Part shown: piece after piece, positions 1,434 through 63,306 of the stretch
Layout of the letters: each line of letters begins with the position of its first letter
How positions within the stretch are numbered: the first letter of the stretch is position 1
Source of the DNA: a candidate division LCP-89 bacterium B3_LCP
Lineage (GTDB): Bacteria > Electryoneota > B3-LCP
Assembly: GCA_005223185.1 (NCBI GenBank)
Contig: NJBN01000007.1
Coordinates: forward strand, 164,355-228,354
Direction: 5' to 3'
Length of the DNA: 64,000 nucleotides
The notes under the pieces: generated by a model
The model's database searches: none
Seen by the model: only the letters and a program-made list of their open reading frames with translations
What the model was told of the DNA's origin: nothing
Translations under genes and position numbers: made by a program

Positions 1434-1658
1434 CCCTACAGAAGGTACTGAAGCGTTGTTGGTACTACTTGTCAGAGTTATTTCGACCTATCGGTGAAAT
1501 TTAACCGATTTATAGATGGAAGTCAAGCTAAAAGCGGAGGAAACATTTTGAAGGAGAAATAACAAAAGGGTCAATTAAATATCGACCCACACACGCGTAG
1601 GGGTCGGGCTTGCCCCGACCCGCATCCTTTAAAATCTCCCCCCTATTTTAAAAAGTGC
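1434..1658. other. Intergenic region with two hairpins
   Basis: No gene is visible between mtnA and the secreted propeller gene. It holds a GGGTC/GACCC hairpin (about 1568-1588) and a copy of the GGGTCGGG-cttgc-CCCGACCC palindrome (1595-1623) that also occurs inside two secreted-protein genes. Confidence 0.6.
1595..1623. repeat. Palindromic element, family A (intergenic copy)
   Basis: Inverted repeat GGGTCGGG (1601-1608) and CCCGACCC (1614-1621), preceded by cgcgtag. The same leader and stem occur at 3524 and 54208, where they sit inside coding sequence. This copy is outside genes and gives the ancestral-looking context. Confidence 0.75.
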
Positions 1659-1730: not shown

Positions 1731-2726
1731 ATGAAATGGAAAATGTTGCTTATCGCTCTTTTAGCTTCCCTGTTCATATTGGTTTCTATTGTGAATGCGC
1801 AAGTGTGGGAGGAATGGGTGGCTATGTACAATGGGCCGGGAGACGATTGGGATCGCCCTTACTCTATTGGAATAGATGCAAACGGGAGTATATACGTAAC
1901 GGGATACAGTTATGGTGAAAGTGGATATGCAGACTATGCAACTATCAAGTACGACGCAGGTGGCAGGGAACTTTGGGTGGTAAGGTATGATGGCCCTATG
2001 AGCGCAGGTGATTATGCAAAATGTCTTGGTATAAGCAACGACGGATATATTTATGTTACCGGCTACAGTAATCACACTTCTTGTTATGATTACGCTACTG
2101 TGAAGTATGATTCTACGGGTGAAGAGTTGTGGGTTACAAGGTACAATAGTCAATATAACTACAAAGATTATGCACAATCGCTAGCGCTGGATGATGTTGG
2201 TAATGTATATGTAACGGGTTATAGTGGTAGTCCTGGAATTCCAGTTATTGATTATGATTGTGTAACAATTAAATATAATTCATTAGGGGAAGAACAGTGG
2301 GTAGCAACATACAGTGGAGCAGCAGAGGAAAATGATAAATCATTTGACGTTGCAGTCGATCATAACGATAATTCTTATATTACAGGATATACATACGGGG
2401 CTACAGGTTGGGATTTTCTGACAATTAAATATAATACAGATGGTGAAGAGCAGTGGGTATCAATTTGGGATAATCCAGGATTGTGGCCATCTCCCACAGA
2501 TTTAGCTTTGGATAATGACTGCAATGTGTTCATAACTGGATCAACAGAACCATATGTTGAGGGTCATGCAGTGACCATAAAATATAACTCCGATGGCGAG
2601 GAGCGTGGGTGGCAGAATATTTCGGTCCAGGTCCGTTTCAAGAAGCCTCAGCAAATTCAATTGCAGTTGATGATAGTGGTTACATTTATATTACAGGATG
2701 TACAAGAATCAATTCCCAAGATGTAA
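1731..2726 (+). CDS. Secreted SBBP-repeat beta-propeller protein, N-terminal part (frameshifted)
   Basis: N-terminal signal peptide (residues 1-23, ending VNAQ) followed by repeats of about 50 residues of the pattern IYVTGYS..DYATIKYD..GxELWVxRY. This is the SBBP (seven-bladed propeller) repeat of exported proteins. At codon 292 the reading leaves the repeat consensus: GEERGW replaces the expected GEEQWVAEYF. Inserting one A between 2604 and 2605 restores it and joins this frame to the one starting at 2609. The rest of this frame to 2726 is out-of-frame nonsense. The gene is either a recent pseudogene or carries an assembly error. It is expressed from the promoter at 1659. Confidence 0.8.
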   Translation: MKWKMLLIALLASLFILVSIVNAQVWEEWVAMYNGPGDDWDRPYSIGIDANGSIYVTGYSYGESGYADYATIKYDAGGRELWVVRYDGPMSAGDYAKCLGISNDGYIYVTGYSNHTSCYDYATVKYDSTGEELWVTRYNSQYNYKDYAQSLALDDVGNVYVTGYSGSPGIPVIDYDCVTIKYNSLGEEQWVATYSGAAEENDKSFDVAVDHNDNSYITGYTYGATGWDFLTIKYNTDGEEQWVSIWDNPGLWPSPTDLALDNDCNVFITGSTEPYVEGHAVTIKYNSDGEERGWQNISVQVRFKKPQQIQLQLMIVVTFILQDVQESIPKM

Positions 2727-3691
2727 GAAAGATTTTTACCATAAAATACAATACAAATGGAGAAGAACAATGGGTTGCCCTTGCTGGTGAAGAGTGGGGT
2801 TGGGGTGGGAATGCAATCGCATTAGATGACAATGGAAATGTGTATGTTACAGGCACTAACAGCATCGATTACGCGAATTGTTCTTCAGACTATATTACTA
2901 TCAAGTATAATAACAATGGTGTGGAACAATGGCTTATTACTTACAACGGATTAGCTAACGGGAATGATGAGCCTACAGAAATTGTAACTACTGATAACTT
3001 AGACATCTATATTACTGGACATTCTTCACCCTACCCTATAGGTGGACAAATAGAATATGACTACTGCACCATCAAATACTCCCAATCCGGACCACCCATG
3101 CCTGTGGAATTGGTCGGCTTTGATGCTGAAATCCTAACAAATGGAGTAGAACTCAACTGGCAGACGGCATCTGAGATGGATTGCTACGGCTGGAAAGTTG
3201 AACGAAGGCAGGGTGATGAACAATATCAAGACATAAGTCCGCTAATCCCTGGTAATGGCACAACAGAAGAGCCGCATAATTACAGTTACATAGACCAAAC
3301 GACCCAAACCGGTGAAACCTACGAATACCGCCTGGAACAGATAGATATAGGCGGTTCCATCACCTTCTCTGATCCGATTATGGTGTCCTTACCTCCCTTA
3401 ACAGCCGGAGATTTTCATCTTTTCCAAAACTCCCCCAACCCCTTCAACGCCACCACAGTTATCAGTTTCTCGCTGCCGGTGGCGAGTATGGTACAGTTGG
3501 ATGTTTTTGATGTAACCGGCGCCCGCGTAGGGGTCGGTCTTGCGCCGACCCGCCCCTACACACCAGGCACCCACCAGATTAAATTTGATGGATCTGGTTT
3601 GCCGTCGGGAATTTATCTTTATAGGCTAACAGCATCGGGGTCAGGGGCGACCCCGACTATGAAGGTGGGTAAGATGGTGCTGCTTAAGTAA
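2609..3691 (+). CDS. Secreted SBBP-repeat beta-propeller protein, C-terminal part with T9SS sorting domain
   Basis: Continuation of the gene that begins at 1731, in the next frame. It carries further SBBP repeats to about residue 155, then a fibronectin-like/pre-CTD segment beginning MPVELVGFDAE with LNWQTASE. It ends in a type A sorting domain with NSPNPFNATTVISFSLP, GSGLPSGIYLYRL and the final KMVLLK. Two palindromic elements are built into the sorting domain in frame: residues GVGLAPTRPY come from the element at 3524, and SGSGATPT from the palindrome at 3635. The ATG at 2609 is not a true start; the natural start is 1731. Confidence 0.8.
   Translation: MAEYFGPGPFQEASANSIAVDDSGYIYITGCTRINSQDVRKIFTIKYNTNGEEQWVALAGEEWGWGGNAIALDDNGNVYVTGTNSIDYANCSSDYITIKYNNNGVEQWLITYNGLANGNDEPTEIVTTDNLDIYITGHSSPYPIGGQIEYDYCTIKYSQSGPPMPVELVGFDAEILTNGVELNWQTASEMDCYGWKVERRQGDEQYQDISPLIPGNGTTEEPHNYSYIDQTTQTGETYEYRLEQIDIGGSITFSDPIMVSLPPLTAGDFHLFQNSPNPFNATTVISFSLPVASMVQLDVFDVTGARVGVGLAPTRPYTPGTHQIKFDGSGLPSGIYLYRLTASGSGATPTMKVGKMVLLK
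3524..3560 (+). repeat. Palindromic element, family A, inside the sorting-domain coding sequence
   Basis: The first 29 bases (3524-3552) are identical to 54208-54236 in another secreted-protein gene. An inner GGTCGG/CCGACC stem is framed by GTAGGGG (3528-3534) and CCCCTAC (3553-3559). It is translated in frame and lies directly after the DVTGARV strand of the sorting domain. Confidence 0.85.
3635..3656 (+). repeat. Perfect 8-bp palindrome inside the sorting-domain coding sequence
   Basis: TCGGGGTC (3635-3642), loop aggggc, GACCCCGA (3649-3656). It encodes the extra SGSGATPT between the last two strands of the sorting domain. The half-site gtcggggtcagggg also occurs intergenically near 42112, and with one change near 18731. 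Confidence 0.75.
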
Positions 3692-53172: not shown

Positions 53173-53200
53173 TTAAAAGGCGGGGGAAACACCCCCGCCC
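53173..53200 (-). terminator. Hairpin after the deoxynucleoside kinase gene
   Basis: Minus strand GGGCGGGGG-tgttt-CCCCCGCC then TTTTAAAG. The same sequence type recurs at 59366, so it is also a repeated element. Confidence 0.65.
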
Positions 53201-53231
53201 TACGGCTTATAACTGTATATGCAGAGTCGAA

Positions 53232-54078: not shown

Positions 54079-56127
54079 CTATTTCACCAACACCATCTTG
54101 CCTGAAGCGGTGAAGTCGTCTACTGTCAGGCGGTAAAGGTAGATGCCGGAAGGCAGACCTGAGCCGTCGAAGGTGATTTCGTATGTGCCGGAGGGATAGT
54201 ATACCTCCGCGTAGGGGTCGGTCTTGCGCCGACCCGAGGGCGAGGCATGCCTCGCCCCTACAGAAACCCTACGCCCATTTATATCAAACACATCCAACTT
54301 CACCCAACTTGCAACTGGCAACTGGAAACTGATAGTAGTGGTGGGATTAAACGGATTAGGATAATTCCTCGCAATTATCTGCTCAGCAGATAGCGCGGCA
54401 GCTTGTCTGCCGCCTATTTCATCAAACATCTCCCCCGAATTAAACCAACCTGATGCATAATCCAACCCGCTGGAACCTGACTTGGTGAAAGTGAAACTAT
54501 CAAAGGAAGTATCTACTCCCGCCACCGCATAGGCATTATAAGAATAAGTTCCTGATGGAGCACCTGCAGGGACATTCTGGCTTCTTTCTCTGGAAATGGT
54601 CTGTTCTGATCCCATTGTTATTGACACCGGCCCCAAAACCGGCCCATAGATGCTGCCATTAGGTAGGGTCACATCGCACCAGACAGTGACAGATTGTGAT
54701 GATGGATCAATATTAGTTGCCTGGATGGTATAATCAAAACTGCCACCTGTAGATGGGATTTCTATGGGTGTGTTGTGGGGTGTAAGCAGGATACGGACAG
54801 GGATACTCTGATCATAGTAGTAAGCCCCCATATCAGCCTGCGTTCCGTCCGGATCATTATATTGCGGATCTGGATCACCAGTATCGATACAGGGGGAATC
54901 CCACTGCAGGCGGTAATCCCCCCAGGTTGTATCAACGAATACAGGGTATTCATCAATGTTGCCTAAACCTGGCCAGCCGCCTTGAATATCGCAGAAATTG
55001 ATTTCAGGATTTGAACTCGTGCCGATATGGATTTCATTTGGTCTATCATTCCATAAGATACAGTTATATAGGGACGTTCCTGAACTGAAGTTATAGAAAT
55101 AAACTCCTCCACCAGAGTTAGTAGCGAGATTTTCACTAATAGTACACTTATCTATCAAAAGATTAGAAAAATCCAGATGAAAGCCACCACCCCAACTTGC
55201 AGAATTCTGTTCAATCAAACAGTGGCTTATGGTTGCATCTGAATACCAGCAGAAAATACCTCCACCTCGAGTATAAGTACCAACACAAGAGTTACCAGTT
55301 ATATTACAAGCGTTAATGACCGGATCTGATGAAATACAATGGATTCCTGCGCCATAGAGTTCGGCCAAATTTCCAATGATGTAACAGTGGTTTATTGTCG
55401 GATTGGCATATTCACAGCCCAAACCTCCTCCGAATTGGCCGGCGATGTTCTCACCAATGCTGCTATAATCAATAATCGAATTGGATAAATGAGAAAGATA
55501 AATTCCACCACCATCGAATTCGGCATTATTATTATAAATAATACAGGAAATAATTCTTGGATTTGAGTATTGATTACAACAGATTCCAGCCCCCCACTCT
55601 GCAAAATTTTCCTCTATATCGCACATTGTTATAATTGGACTGGATTGATGAAGGTACATCCCACCACCGCATCCTGCAGAGTTATTATTTATCGAGCATT
55701 TATAAATTGTAGGGTTTGAGTTTTGGCAGAATATACCACCTCCATCATTATCCGATGAAGCACCAGTTGCCTGTCCATATTGTACTATGCAATAAGTCAA
55801 TTGACTACTATCAGGCGCATCGATAAACCGTATCCCATGCCAGCCAACACTGGTATCTGCCGCTGTAAAGAGAATCGAGTCGCTTTCGGTGCCTTCCGCC
55901 AGAAGCCAGCCGTTTACTATCAGCTTATAGTGCCCCTGAAAGATAACGTCCACACCGGGTTCTATCAGAAGTGTGTCGCTGCTGATTATGGTAATTTCTC
56001 CTTCAATCAGGTAGGGAGAACCGGCTGCTTCCCAGGTACCGGAAACATTGCCACCGGGTATAGTGGTTTGGGAGTGAGTGATAGAGCAGAGCAAAAGTAG
56101 GCAGAAAATTGTTTTAGAAGCTTTCAT
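54079..56127 (-). CDS. Secreted parallel beta-helix protein with T9SS sorting domain and in-frame palindromes
   Basis: The start was taken at ATG 56127, with AAAGGAGG 8 bases upstream; the TTG seven codons earlier lies over the ribosome site. About 682 residues: signal peptide (MKASKTIFCLLLLCSITHSQ), beta-helix (about 50-400, YGAGIHC / GGGIFCWYSD coils), the shared pre-sorting domain (RILLTPHNTPIEIPSTGGSF to FTFTKSG), a linker and the sorting domain. The linker and domain carry four palindromes read in frame: ALSAEQI (54377), GGRQAA (54395), ARHAS (54238) and GRRKTDPYA (54208). Ends ASGKMVLVK. Confidence 0.87.
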   Translation of the reverse strand: MKASKTIFCLLLLCSITHSQTTIPGGNVSGTWEAAGSPYLIEGEITIISSDTLLIEPGVDVIFQGHYKLIVNGWLLAEGTESDSILFTAADTSVGWHGIRFIDAPDSSQLTYCIVQYGQATGASSDNDGGGIFCQNSNPTIYKCSINNNSAGCGGGMYLHQSSPIITMCDIEENFAEWGAGICCNQYSNPRIISCIIYNNNAEFDGGGIYLSHLSNSIIDYSSIGENIAGQFGGGLGCEYANPTINHCYIIGNLAELYGAGIHCISSDPVINACNITGNSCVGTYTRGGGIFCWYSDATISHCLIEQNSASWGGGFHLDFSNLLIDKCTISENLATNSGGGVYFYNFSSGTSLYNCILWNDRPNEIHIGTSSNPEINFCDIQGGWPGLGNIDEYPVFVDTTWGDYRLQWDSPCIDTGDPDPQYNDPDGTQADMGAYYYDQSIPVRILLTPHNTPIEIPSTGGSFDYTIQATNIDPSSQSVTVWCDVTLPNGSIYGPVLGPVSITMGSEQTISRERSQNVPAGAPSGTYSYNAYAVAGVDTSFDSFTFTKSGSSGLDYASGWFNSGEMFDEIGGRQAAALSAEQIIARNYPNPFNPTTTISFQLPVASWVKLDVFDINGRRVSVGARHASPSGRRKTDPYAEVYYPSGTYEITFDGSGLPSGIYLYRLTVDDFTASGKMVLVK
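54208..54257. repeat. Two adjoining palindromic elements inside the sorting-domain coding sequence
   Basis: 54208-54236 is identical over 29 bases to 3524-3552 (family A, opposite orientation relative to the reading frame of its host gene). 54238-54257 is a perfect 20-bp palindrome GGGCGAGGCA/TGCCTCGCCC. Both are translated in frame, after the DINGRRV strand of the sorting domain. Confidence 0.88.
54377..54413. repeat. Two palindromes in the linker before the sorting domain
   Basis: ATCTGCT-c-AGCAGAT (54377-54391) and GCGGCA-gcttgtc-TGCCGC (54395-54413). Also read in frame, giving IGGRQAAALSAEQII just before ARNYPNPFNP. Their density in one gene is remarkable. Confidence 0.75.
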
Positions 56128-59337: not shown

Positions 59338-59365
59338 TTTACCAATAAATCCCTAATATTCCGTA

Positions 59366-59392
59366 GGGCGGGGGTGCTTCCCCCGCCCTTTC
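59366..59392 (+). terminator. Hairpin after the M14 gene
   Basis: GGGCGGGGG (59366-59374), tgctt, CCCCCGCCC (59380-59388), then TTTCT. Terminator-like, and of the same type as the hairpin at 53173. Confidence 0.72.
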
Positions 59393-61602: not shown

Positions 61603-63306
61603 ATGTTAATTATCATTCTCAGATTGATCGGAATTATTGCTGCTATTGCGACAGCAGTAATGGGTCTTAAATCAAGCGGCCCAAAGCATAGATATTTTTT
61701 ATTAGCCATTCTTCTGCTCCTCCTGCAGGGGATACCGCAAGGCTTTGATGTATTTAAACCAGATCTGTCAGAAGAGACCATCCGGAAAATCGCCGAAACC
61801 ACTAAGGATATATTACTGGAAGCACAGCATTCTAAGAAAATTCTGAACGATACTGAAAACGATGAGCTACGTCGCCTTGCAGAAAAAGGCTTAGAAGAGG
61901 AGGCACGAGCTGAGAAGATAGCTACTGCCATTCAACAGGGCTATGAGGAAGCCGCTAAGCAATATGCAGAAGCTACTCTGCGAGCCATAAAGTATTACCG
62001 CCAGGGTTTATCAGCCAATCCCAAAACCAGCGAACGCTGCGCGCTGTATAATCTGATAGGTATTGCTCATTACCGCATCTCTCAGTTGAATGAGGCAGCA
62101 GATGCCTGGGAAGAATCCGCCAGATTAGCTGGAGAATTGATTTCAGATGAGGAGAATTCTGAAGAAGAACAGATCGCTCTGGCTATTGCTGTAGGCAACT
62201 TAGGCATAGTCTATAAAACCCGCGGCGATCTGAAGCTAGCCGAAGAGATGCACCTTAAAGCGCTGAAGATCAACGAGGAGCTTGGTCGCAAGGTGGGAAT
62301 GGCTTCAAATTACGGCAACTTAGGATTGGTCTATGGTACCCGCGGTGATCTTGATAGAGCCGAAGAGATGCACCTTAAAGCGCTGAAGATCAACGAGGAG
62401 CTTGGTCGCAAGGTGGGAATGGCTTCAAATTACGGCAACTTAGGATTGGTCTATGGTACCCGCGGCGATCTGAACAGAGCCGAAGAGATGCACCTTAAAT
62501 CATTAGAGATAGAGAAATCTCTGGGTCACAAGAAAGGTATGGCTTCTGATTACGGCAACTTAGGCAATGTCTATCAAATCCGCGGCGATCTTGACAAAGC
62601 CGAAGAGATGTACCAAAAAGCGTTGAAAATACATGATGAGATGGGCAATAAGGAAGGCGTGGCTTCAGATTACAGCAACTTAGGCAACGTCTATCAAACC
62701 CGCGGCGATCTGAAAAAGGCGGAAGAGATGTACCAGAAAGCGCTGGAGATCAACAAGGAGCTTGGTTGCAAAGAGGGCATGGCAATTCAGCGTGGCAACT
62801 TAGGCGTACTCTATAAAACACGCGGCGACCTAAACAAAGCCGAAGAGATGTACCAGAAAGCGCTGGAGATCAACGAGGAGCTTGGACGCAAGGAGGGCAT
62901 GGCTAACCATTACGGCAACTTAGGCAATGTCTATCAAATCCGCGGCGACCTAAAAAAAGCCGAAGAGATGTACCTGAAATCGCTGGAGATCAACGAGGAA
63001 CTTGGAAGCAAAGAGGGTATGGCTAACCAGTATGGAAACTTGGGTAATGTCTTCGGAATCCGCGGCGACCTCAACCGTGCCGAAGAGATGTACCAGAAAG
63101 CCTTGAAGATCAACGAGGAGCTTGGTCGAAAAGAAGGGATGGCTATCCAGTACGGCAACTTAGGCATAGTCTATAAAACCAGCGGTGACCTTAAGAAAGC
63201 AGAAGAGTATTACCGCCAGGCGCTGACATTGTATAGAGAAGTCGGTGCGGAACCTAAAATTGAGTGGGCTATAGAGCGGTTGAAGGAAATCGGTGTAGAA
63301 CCGTGA
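61603..63306 (+). CDS. Membrane-anchored TPR protein with nine near-identical repeats
   Basis: 567 residues. Two N-terminal membrane helices (about 3-22, 31-47), a charged coiled-coil-prone region (about 55-125), a degenerate TPR start, then nine TPR units of 40 residues (about 205-560) of the pattern RGDLxxAEEMYxKALxINEELGRKEGMAxxYGNLGxVY. DNA units are 120 bases; the second and third (about 62222-62460) are almost identical, showing recent homogenisation. The Kinesin-light-chain-like pattern suggests protein-protein binding. No effector domain is present. Flanked by 143-bp direct repeats. Confidence 0.85.
   Translation: MLIIILRLIGIIAAIATAVMGLKSSGPKHRYFLLAILLLLLQGIPQGFDVFKPDLSEETIRKIAETTKDILLEAQHSKKILNDTENDELRRLAEKGLEEEARAEKIATAIQQGYEEAAKQYAEATLRAIKYYRQGLSANPKTSERCALYNLIGIAHYRISQLNEAADAWEESARLAGELISDEENSEEEQIALAIAVGNLGIVYKTRGDLKLAEEMHLKALKINEELGRKVGMASNYGNLGLVYGTRGDLDRAEEMHLKALKINEELGRKVGMASNYGNLGLVYGTRGDLNRAEEMHLKSLEIEKSLGHKKGMASDYGNLGNVYQIRGDLDKAEEMYQKALKIHDEMGNKEGVASDYSNLGNVYQTRGDLKKAEEMYQKALEINKELGCKEGMAIQRGNLGVLYKTRGDLNKAEEMYQKALEINEELGRKEGMANHYGNLGNVYQIRGDLKKAEEMYLKSLEINEELGSKEGMANQYGNLGNVFGIRGDLNRAEEMYQKALKINEELGRKEGMAIQYGNLGIVYKTSGDLKKAEEYYRQALTLYREVGAEPKIEWAIERLKEIGVEP

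Follow-up and report, generated by a model that had tools for sequence, protein, structure and literature searches.

Palindromic repeats of GTAG type, probably REPs, recur in one beta-hairpin of T9SS sorting domains in an LCP-89-type bacterium and its relatives

The 64,000-nucleotide stretch of DNA analyzed here (the window) contains two cargo genes whose T9SS sorting domains carry short palindromes in frame. The first host gene (1731-3691, plus strand) encodes repeats of the SBBP/propeller kind and has a frameshift near 2605 in the assembly used; the reading frame changes at 2595-2615 by the apparent loss of one base, and the gene is therefore either a pseudogene or affected by an assembly error. 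Its T9SS type A sorting domain (3431-3688, plus strand) scores 34.7 bits against TIGR04183 (cut-off 23) and 36 bits against PF18962. Within the hairpin of this domain a 29-base element, R1, lies in frame (3524-3552, plus strand, orientation A) and encodes RVGVGLAPTR. The original prediction that GVGLAPTRPY is added at a short loop after the DVTGARV strand was correct as to the frame and the sorting-domain loop; the insert, though, takes the place of part of the strand, so that about six native residues give way to eight and the loop lengthens from 9 to 11 residues. The further palindrome proposed to add SGSGATPT is present as well: R2 (3635-3656, minus strand) occupies the domain's last hairpin without breaking the frame, measures 22 nt with arms TCGGGGTC/GACCCCGA, folds as a hairpin, and has the foot ATAG on the minus strand. 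A third window copy of R1, with 2 mismatches, is intergenic, 5' of the first host gene (1594-1622, plus strand). In an AlphaFold2 model of the first domain (mean pLDDT 82.7) the strands are predicted to stay in place with the element present, and R1 forms mostly loop at a pLDDT of about 72. The closest solved structures by sequence profile are the T9SS domains 8glj/8glk, FlgD and RgpB 5hfs, and Foldseek run on the model returned generic beta-sandwiches only, with weak E-values.

The second host gene (54079-56127, minus strand) ends in a T9SS sorting domain (54082-54363, minus strand) with a 24-residue loop built from two elements. R1 (54208-54236, plus strand) is inverted relative to the gene (orientation B) and encodes GRRKTDPYA on the minus strand; it is joined to a third palindrome, R3 (GTAGGGGCGAGGCATGCCTCGCC; 54239-54261, minus strand), which encodes GARHASP. 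The predicted identity to 3524-3552 is exact at 29 of 29 bases, and shuffled sequence is expected to give 0.00 matches to a 29-mer; the inversion, the different peptide and the fusion to R3 had not been foreseen. In the AlphaFold2 model of this domain (the second of two models, both of element-bearing domains) the insert has a pLDDT of 54-69 and the core is still high. The best full-length matches of the second cargo in two related genomes, G003 (44%) and G004 (48%), have a native 9-residue loop, so that orthologues of this gene lack the element. The match in G001 (46%) keeps GARLPRP as a short remnant, and its last hairpin contains an R2-like stretch. These matches differ across the rest of the domain too, and therefore a swap of the whole domain could also account for the difference.

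R1 (CGC-GTAG-GGGTCGG-TCTTGCG-CCGACCC-G) is a short GC-rich imperfect palindrome with a GTAG foot. Allowing up to 3 mismatches, we found 41 copies in the window's genome (3.8 Mb, of candidate-division LCP-89 type) and none of a reversed control pattern; an Rfam scan of the window gave no matches. The copy number lies in the tens to hundreds of dispersed copies that characterize GTAG REPs, and although these usually exceed 100 copies, 41 is within the range of published tables (PMC2817692, PMC3733652). Nineteen of the 41 copies lie where no sorting domain is recognizable, and among the reading frames of this genome, which were used in place of annotation, we recognized R1 in no gene other than sorting-domain cargo. 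The remaining 22 are intragenic, where GTAG REPs are usually, if not necessarily, mostly extragenic. By manual reading, R1 is open in five of its six frames and meets GCG TAG in the other. Five of the six genomes of the window's family contain R1, G002 lacking it at the stringency used, and the 55 other relatives searched gave no copy. Records of candidate division LCP-89 (JALGVT) contain it too, as do those of an unclassified marine MAG (JAHJDJ); a single stray match came from a Cloacimonetes MAG. An R1-bearing amidohydrolase provides no empty site because the relatives hold no orthologue of it (best 33%). In G004 a variant of R1 is in frame (C6:12189-12213, L140) in an open reading frame that resembles dnaE (DNA polymerase III alpha). 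Intragenic REPs in genes of this type have already been reported.

Two observations connect R1 to a transposase. First, a transposase gene of the window's genome (C18:282924-283472) lies between two inverted R1 copies; its product scores 97 bits against NF047646, the NCBIfam profile of the REP-associated tyrosine transposase or RAYT (cut-off 80), and matches the solved TnpArep structure PDB 4er8 with an E-value of 2.8e-7. Secondly, G001 has a related transposase, likewise between inverted R1 copies, that is identical to it at 84 of about 152 aligned positions. R2 in turn flanks a second RAYT 2 kb from the first (C18:285 kb), for which an incomplete query reached 79.2 bits, just below the NF047646 cut-off of 80. 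Judged by these sequences, R1 and R2 appear to be GTAG-class REPs with cognate RAYTs in this genome. No other Y1_Tnp gene of the genome has R1 on both sides (L060 only has one nearby R1-like match), and no RAYT was found for R3. A pair of R1-like sequences 570 bp apart on contig C10 of G004 was considered as a RAYT-enclosing unit and rejected, there being no RAYT between them. The window's family is rich in RAYTs and REPs. Each of the six genomes holds 5-11 Y1_Tnp/RAYT-like genes (L052-L061, L197-L226), several of which have inverted GTAG hairpins of their own with other sequences (for example GTAG-CCCGGGAAT..ATTCCCGGG and GTAG-CCACCGGCGAAGCCGGTGG).

The distribution of R1 is far from even. 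All 22 copies in sorting domains of the window's genome occupy the same hairpin, and all 22 are in frame. The original prediction had thus set the scale too low at two genes, as there are at least 22 R1-bearing sorting domains in this genome and more in the five other genera. The genome encodes at least 150 T9SS type A sorting domains together with the secretion machinery (PorU, 744 bits, cut-off 420; SprA, 819 bits counting in-frame neighbours, cut-off 200), and the window's domains are above the profile cut-offs and C-terminal. Sorting domains make up some 1-1.5% of the genome, so that R1 is enriched 35- to 58-fold; the binomial probability of the concentration in the hairpin, at the larger domain estimate of about 1.5%, is p ∼ 3e-29, a value to be taken only as a guide because the R1 copies are not all independent. 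Six R1-bearing cargo genes are clustered at C16:92-109 kb (L094), apparently by gene duplication.

We compared the loops of 148 sorting domains of this genome, 124 of them element-free and 24 element-bearing. A 9-residue loop, [AT][ET]LV[ND]GWRD, is present in 115 of the 124 element-free domains. With R1 in orientation A the loop has 11 residues (GVGLAPTR and three more), with R1 in orientation B it has 14 (GSAQDRPLR and five more), and where R1 is joined to R3 it reaches 22-24 (GARHASPSGRRKTDPYA plus native residues). As a rule the element displaces native residues and does not just add to them, about six in orientation A and four in orientation B. All five exact R3 copies of the genome are in the same hairpin as R1. 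Three domains of this genome, the one in the window among them, have R2 in the last hairpin, and two in G003 have R1 there. Altogether four palindrome families account for at least eight configurations of the loop, which differ in their junctions and in how much native sequence is left. Across 26 orientation A domains the mean synonymous heterozygosity is 0.11 in the element codons, against 0.44 to the left and 0.50 to the right; the element codons are almost without synonymous variation, and it is therefore the DNA itself, and not merely the peptide, that is the same. The possibility that the 29 bases are merely a conserved part of the sorting-domain family, which the resemblance of the orientation A peptide RVGVGL to the native strand RVATLV might suggest, can be dismissed on this near-absence of synonymous variation, on the identical DNA in non-coding and RAYT-flanking copies, and on the unrelated peptides that orientation B encodes at the same place.

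Every genus of the family, six in all, has palindromes in this hairpin; they occur in either orientation, in three reading frames and with several junctions. R3 sits there in G001 and G002 as well, and in variant form in G004, with differing junctions, and G003 and G005 likewise have palindromes in the hairpin. The center of R3 varies by genus and agrees inside and outside the sorting domains. We dropped the corresponding generalization that R1 in the domains is always the genus's own R1 variant, as in G005 the domain copies have GGCCTTGCGCC and other copies GGGCTTGNCCC. On a tree of the domains built without the loop, which has low support in places and would be disturbed by gene conversion, the presence or absence of an element changes 6 times and the type of element 20 times. 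With no more than 6 changes of presence or absence, a count of 20 independent insertions was rejected. We read the pattern as several insertions, probably with frequent turnover, inversion and copying inside domains that were already invaded. In G001 two sorting-domain remnants with R3 and R1 (L117, L113) have lost the upstream half or have it out of frame, that is, they are decaying invaded domains.

Among known systems the closest are the GTAG REPs and their RAYTs, or REPtrons (PMC2817692, PMC3733652). Shared features are the GTAG foot, the short GC-rich imperfect palindrome, the dispersed copies, the RAYT between two inverted copies and occasional in-frame intragenic positions. The intragenic GTAG REPs described in 2013 are in unrelated genes, many of them for replication or repair, and were suggested to encode loops or linkers (PMC3733652); in contrast, intragenic copies make up over half of R1, and without exception they lie in the same hairpin of a single domain family. 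The precedent first named for R1 was the Rickettsia palindromic elements, which are likewise palindromic repeats in frame in protein genes (here 22 of 22). The GTAG-class REPs with cognate RAYTs are nearer kin, as R1 measures about 28 nt, has a GTAG foot and is paired with a cognate transposase. The short REPs of Rickettsia carry the tag CGTC, and RPE-1 exceeds R1 in length (PMC3733652); R1 has neither the CGTC tag nor a long palindrome of the RPE-1 type. The enterobacterial RU/MITE-like repeats are also small and non-autonomous and can contribute codons, but they measure 103-168 bp, and the abstract of the source (PMC2759123) describes neither a RAYT nor a concentration in one domain. The host domain resembles the T9SS type A C-terminal sorting domain (TIGR04183, PF18962) in its PNPFN start and its SGIY and terminal-strand motifs, and departs from it in that one hairpin is replaced by REP-encoded residues. 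In the literature searched, mostly outside subscription journals, we found no concentration of REPs of several families in one secretion-signal loop across six genera.

Our results favor the explanation that the palindromes are GTAG-class REPs of at least three families (R1-R3) which have repeatedly been inserted or exchanged in one beta-hairpin of the T9SS type A domain, and we consider this likely. It draws on the observed identity of the element and its RAYT, the in-frame state, the enrichment, the varied orientations, frames and junctions, and the native loops in orthologues. Most likely these are RAYT-mobilized REPs tolerated in a highly redundant tag. The elements would move by RAYT-dependent single-strand transposition or copying, and an insertion would mostly cost some native codons at the junction; a clean IS608-like insertion would not lead one to expect such a loss, which counts against this explanation. 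The last hairpin would be invaded too, less often than the main one. Inserts in the hairpin probably survive because most frames of the element are open, because the genome has at least 150 copies of the tag and because the conserved motifs of the domain do not include the hairpin. Their survival may be aided by loop tolerance and by removal of the domain after export, as in Porphyromonas gingivalis, whose sorting domain is cleaved off once the protein has been exported (PMC8545088). Some copies could then spread between sorting domains by gene duplication or gene conversion. The element-bearing domains cluster on the tree, with the 6 changes noted above, and therefore new insertions may be fewer than copies. 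Of the two outcomes offered at the outset, surface variation finds no support and tolerated selfish DNA is the better supported.

The alternative that deserves most attention is that one or a few ancient insertions gave rise to a REP-bearing subfamily, later spread by duplication and gene conversion, with palindromes flipped or swapped by REP recombination. This has an appreciable chance, if short of even. The element-bearing domains do form few clades, the tandem paralogues on C16 share one type, and near-identical element DNA would also be expected from gene conversion; against it stand the number of loop configurations and palindrome families, with their differing junctions and native remainders, the genus-specific R3 center that is alike inside and outside domains, and the native loops in orthologues of the second cargo. 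We think it rather unlikely that RAYT-mediated insertion is drawn to the hairpin as a preferred target in the DNA, by GTAG at the V-A/V-G codons or by local single-strand structure. GTAG is the foot of the REPs and occurs at this codon position in 16 of the 124 element-free and 18 of the 24 element-bearing domains; the 18, however, are not independent evidence because GTAG is part of the element, GTAG is common in any genome, and the junctions vary. A benefit of the inserts, as an mRNA-stabilizing hairpin near the 3' end or as a loop altering recognition or exchange of the tag, seems doubtful: REPs have been described close to the 3' ends of genes and as RNA elements (PMC3733652), and some 80-160 nt separate the insert from the stop codon, yet 124 of the 148 sorting domains manage without an element.

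Tolerance of RAYT-mobilized REPs alone leaves unexplained why it is this loop, when the proteome offers many other permissive ones. It is conceivable, though we hold it improbable, that the hairpin has evolved, or is targeted, as a landing pad, to which RAYTs would preferentially deliver REPs, or where REPs would serve as recombination handles. If this were true, a transposase system would keep secretion tags, and the combinations of cargo and tag, turning over in LCP-89-type bacteria. The elements also show a secretion signal being reshaped by mobile DNA, of which we found no description in the literature searched. The six genera provide a natural series in which the same mobile DNA has repeatedly entered a protein in frame at a structurally equivalent site, in varied orientation, frame and junction, and this series makes two questions testable, namely how REPs move and choose their sites, and which parts of a T9SS signal secretion needs.

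Other repeats occur in the window. A further palindrome, GGCGGGGG..CCCCCGCCCTACGG, is present in inverted copies 6 kb apart (53175-53210 and 59356-59391) and is possibly one more REP family, and an array of 120-nt direct repeats, 65-84% alike, extends from 62074 to 63213.
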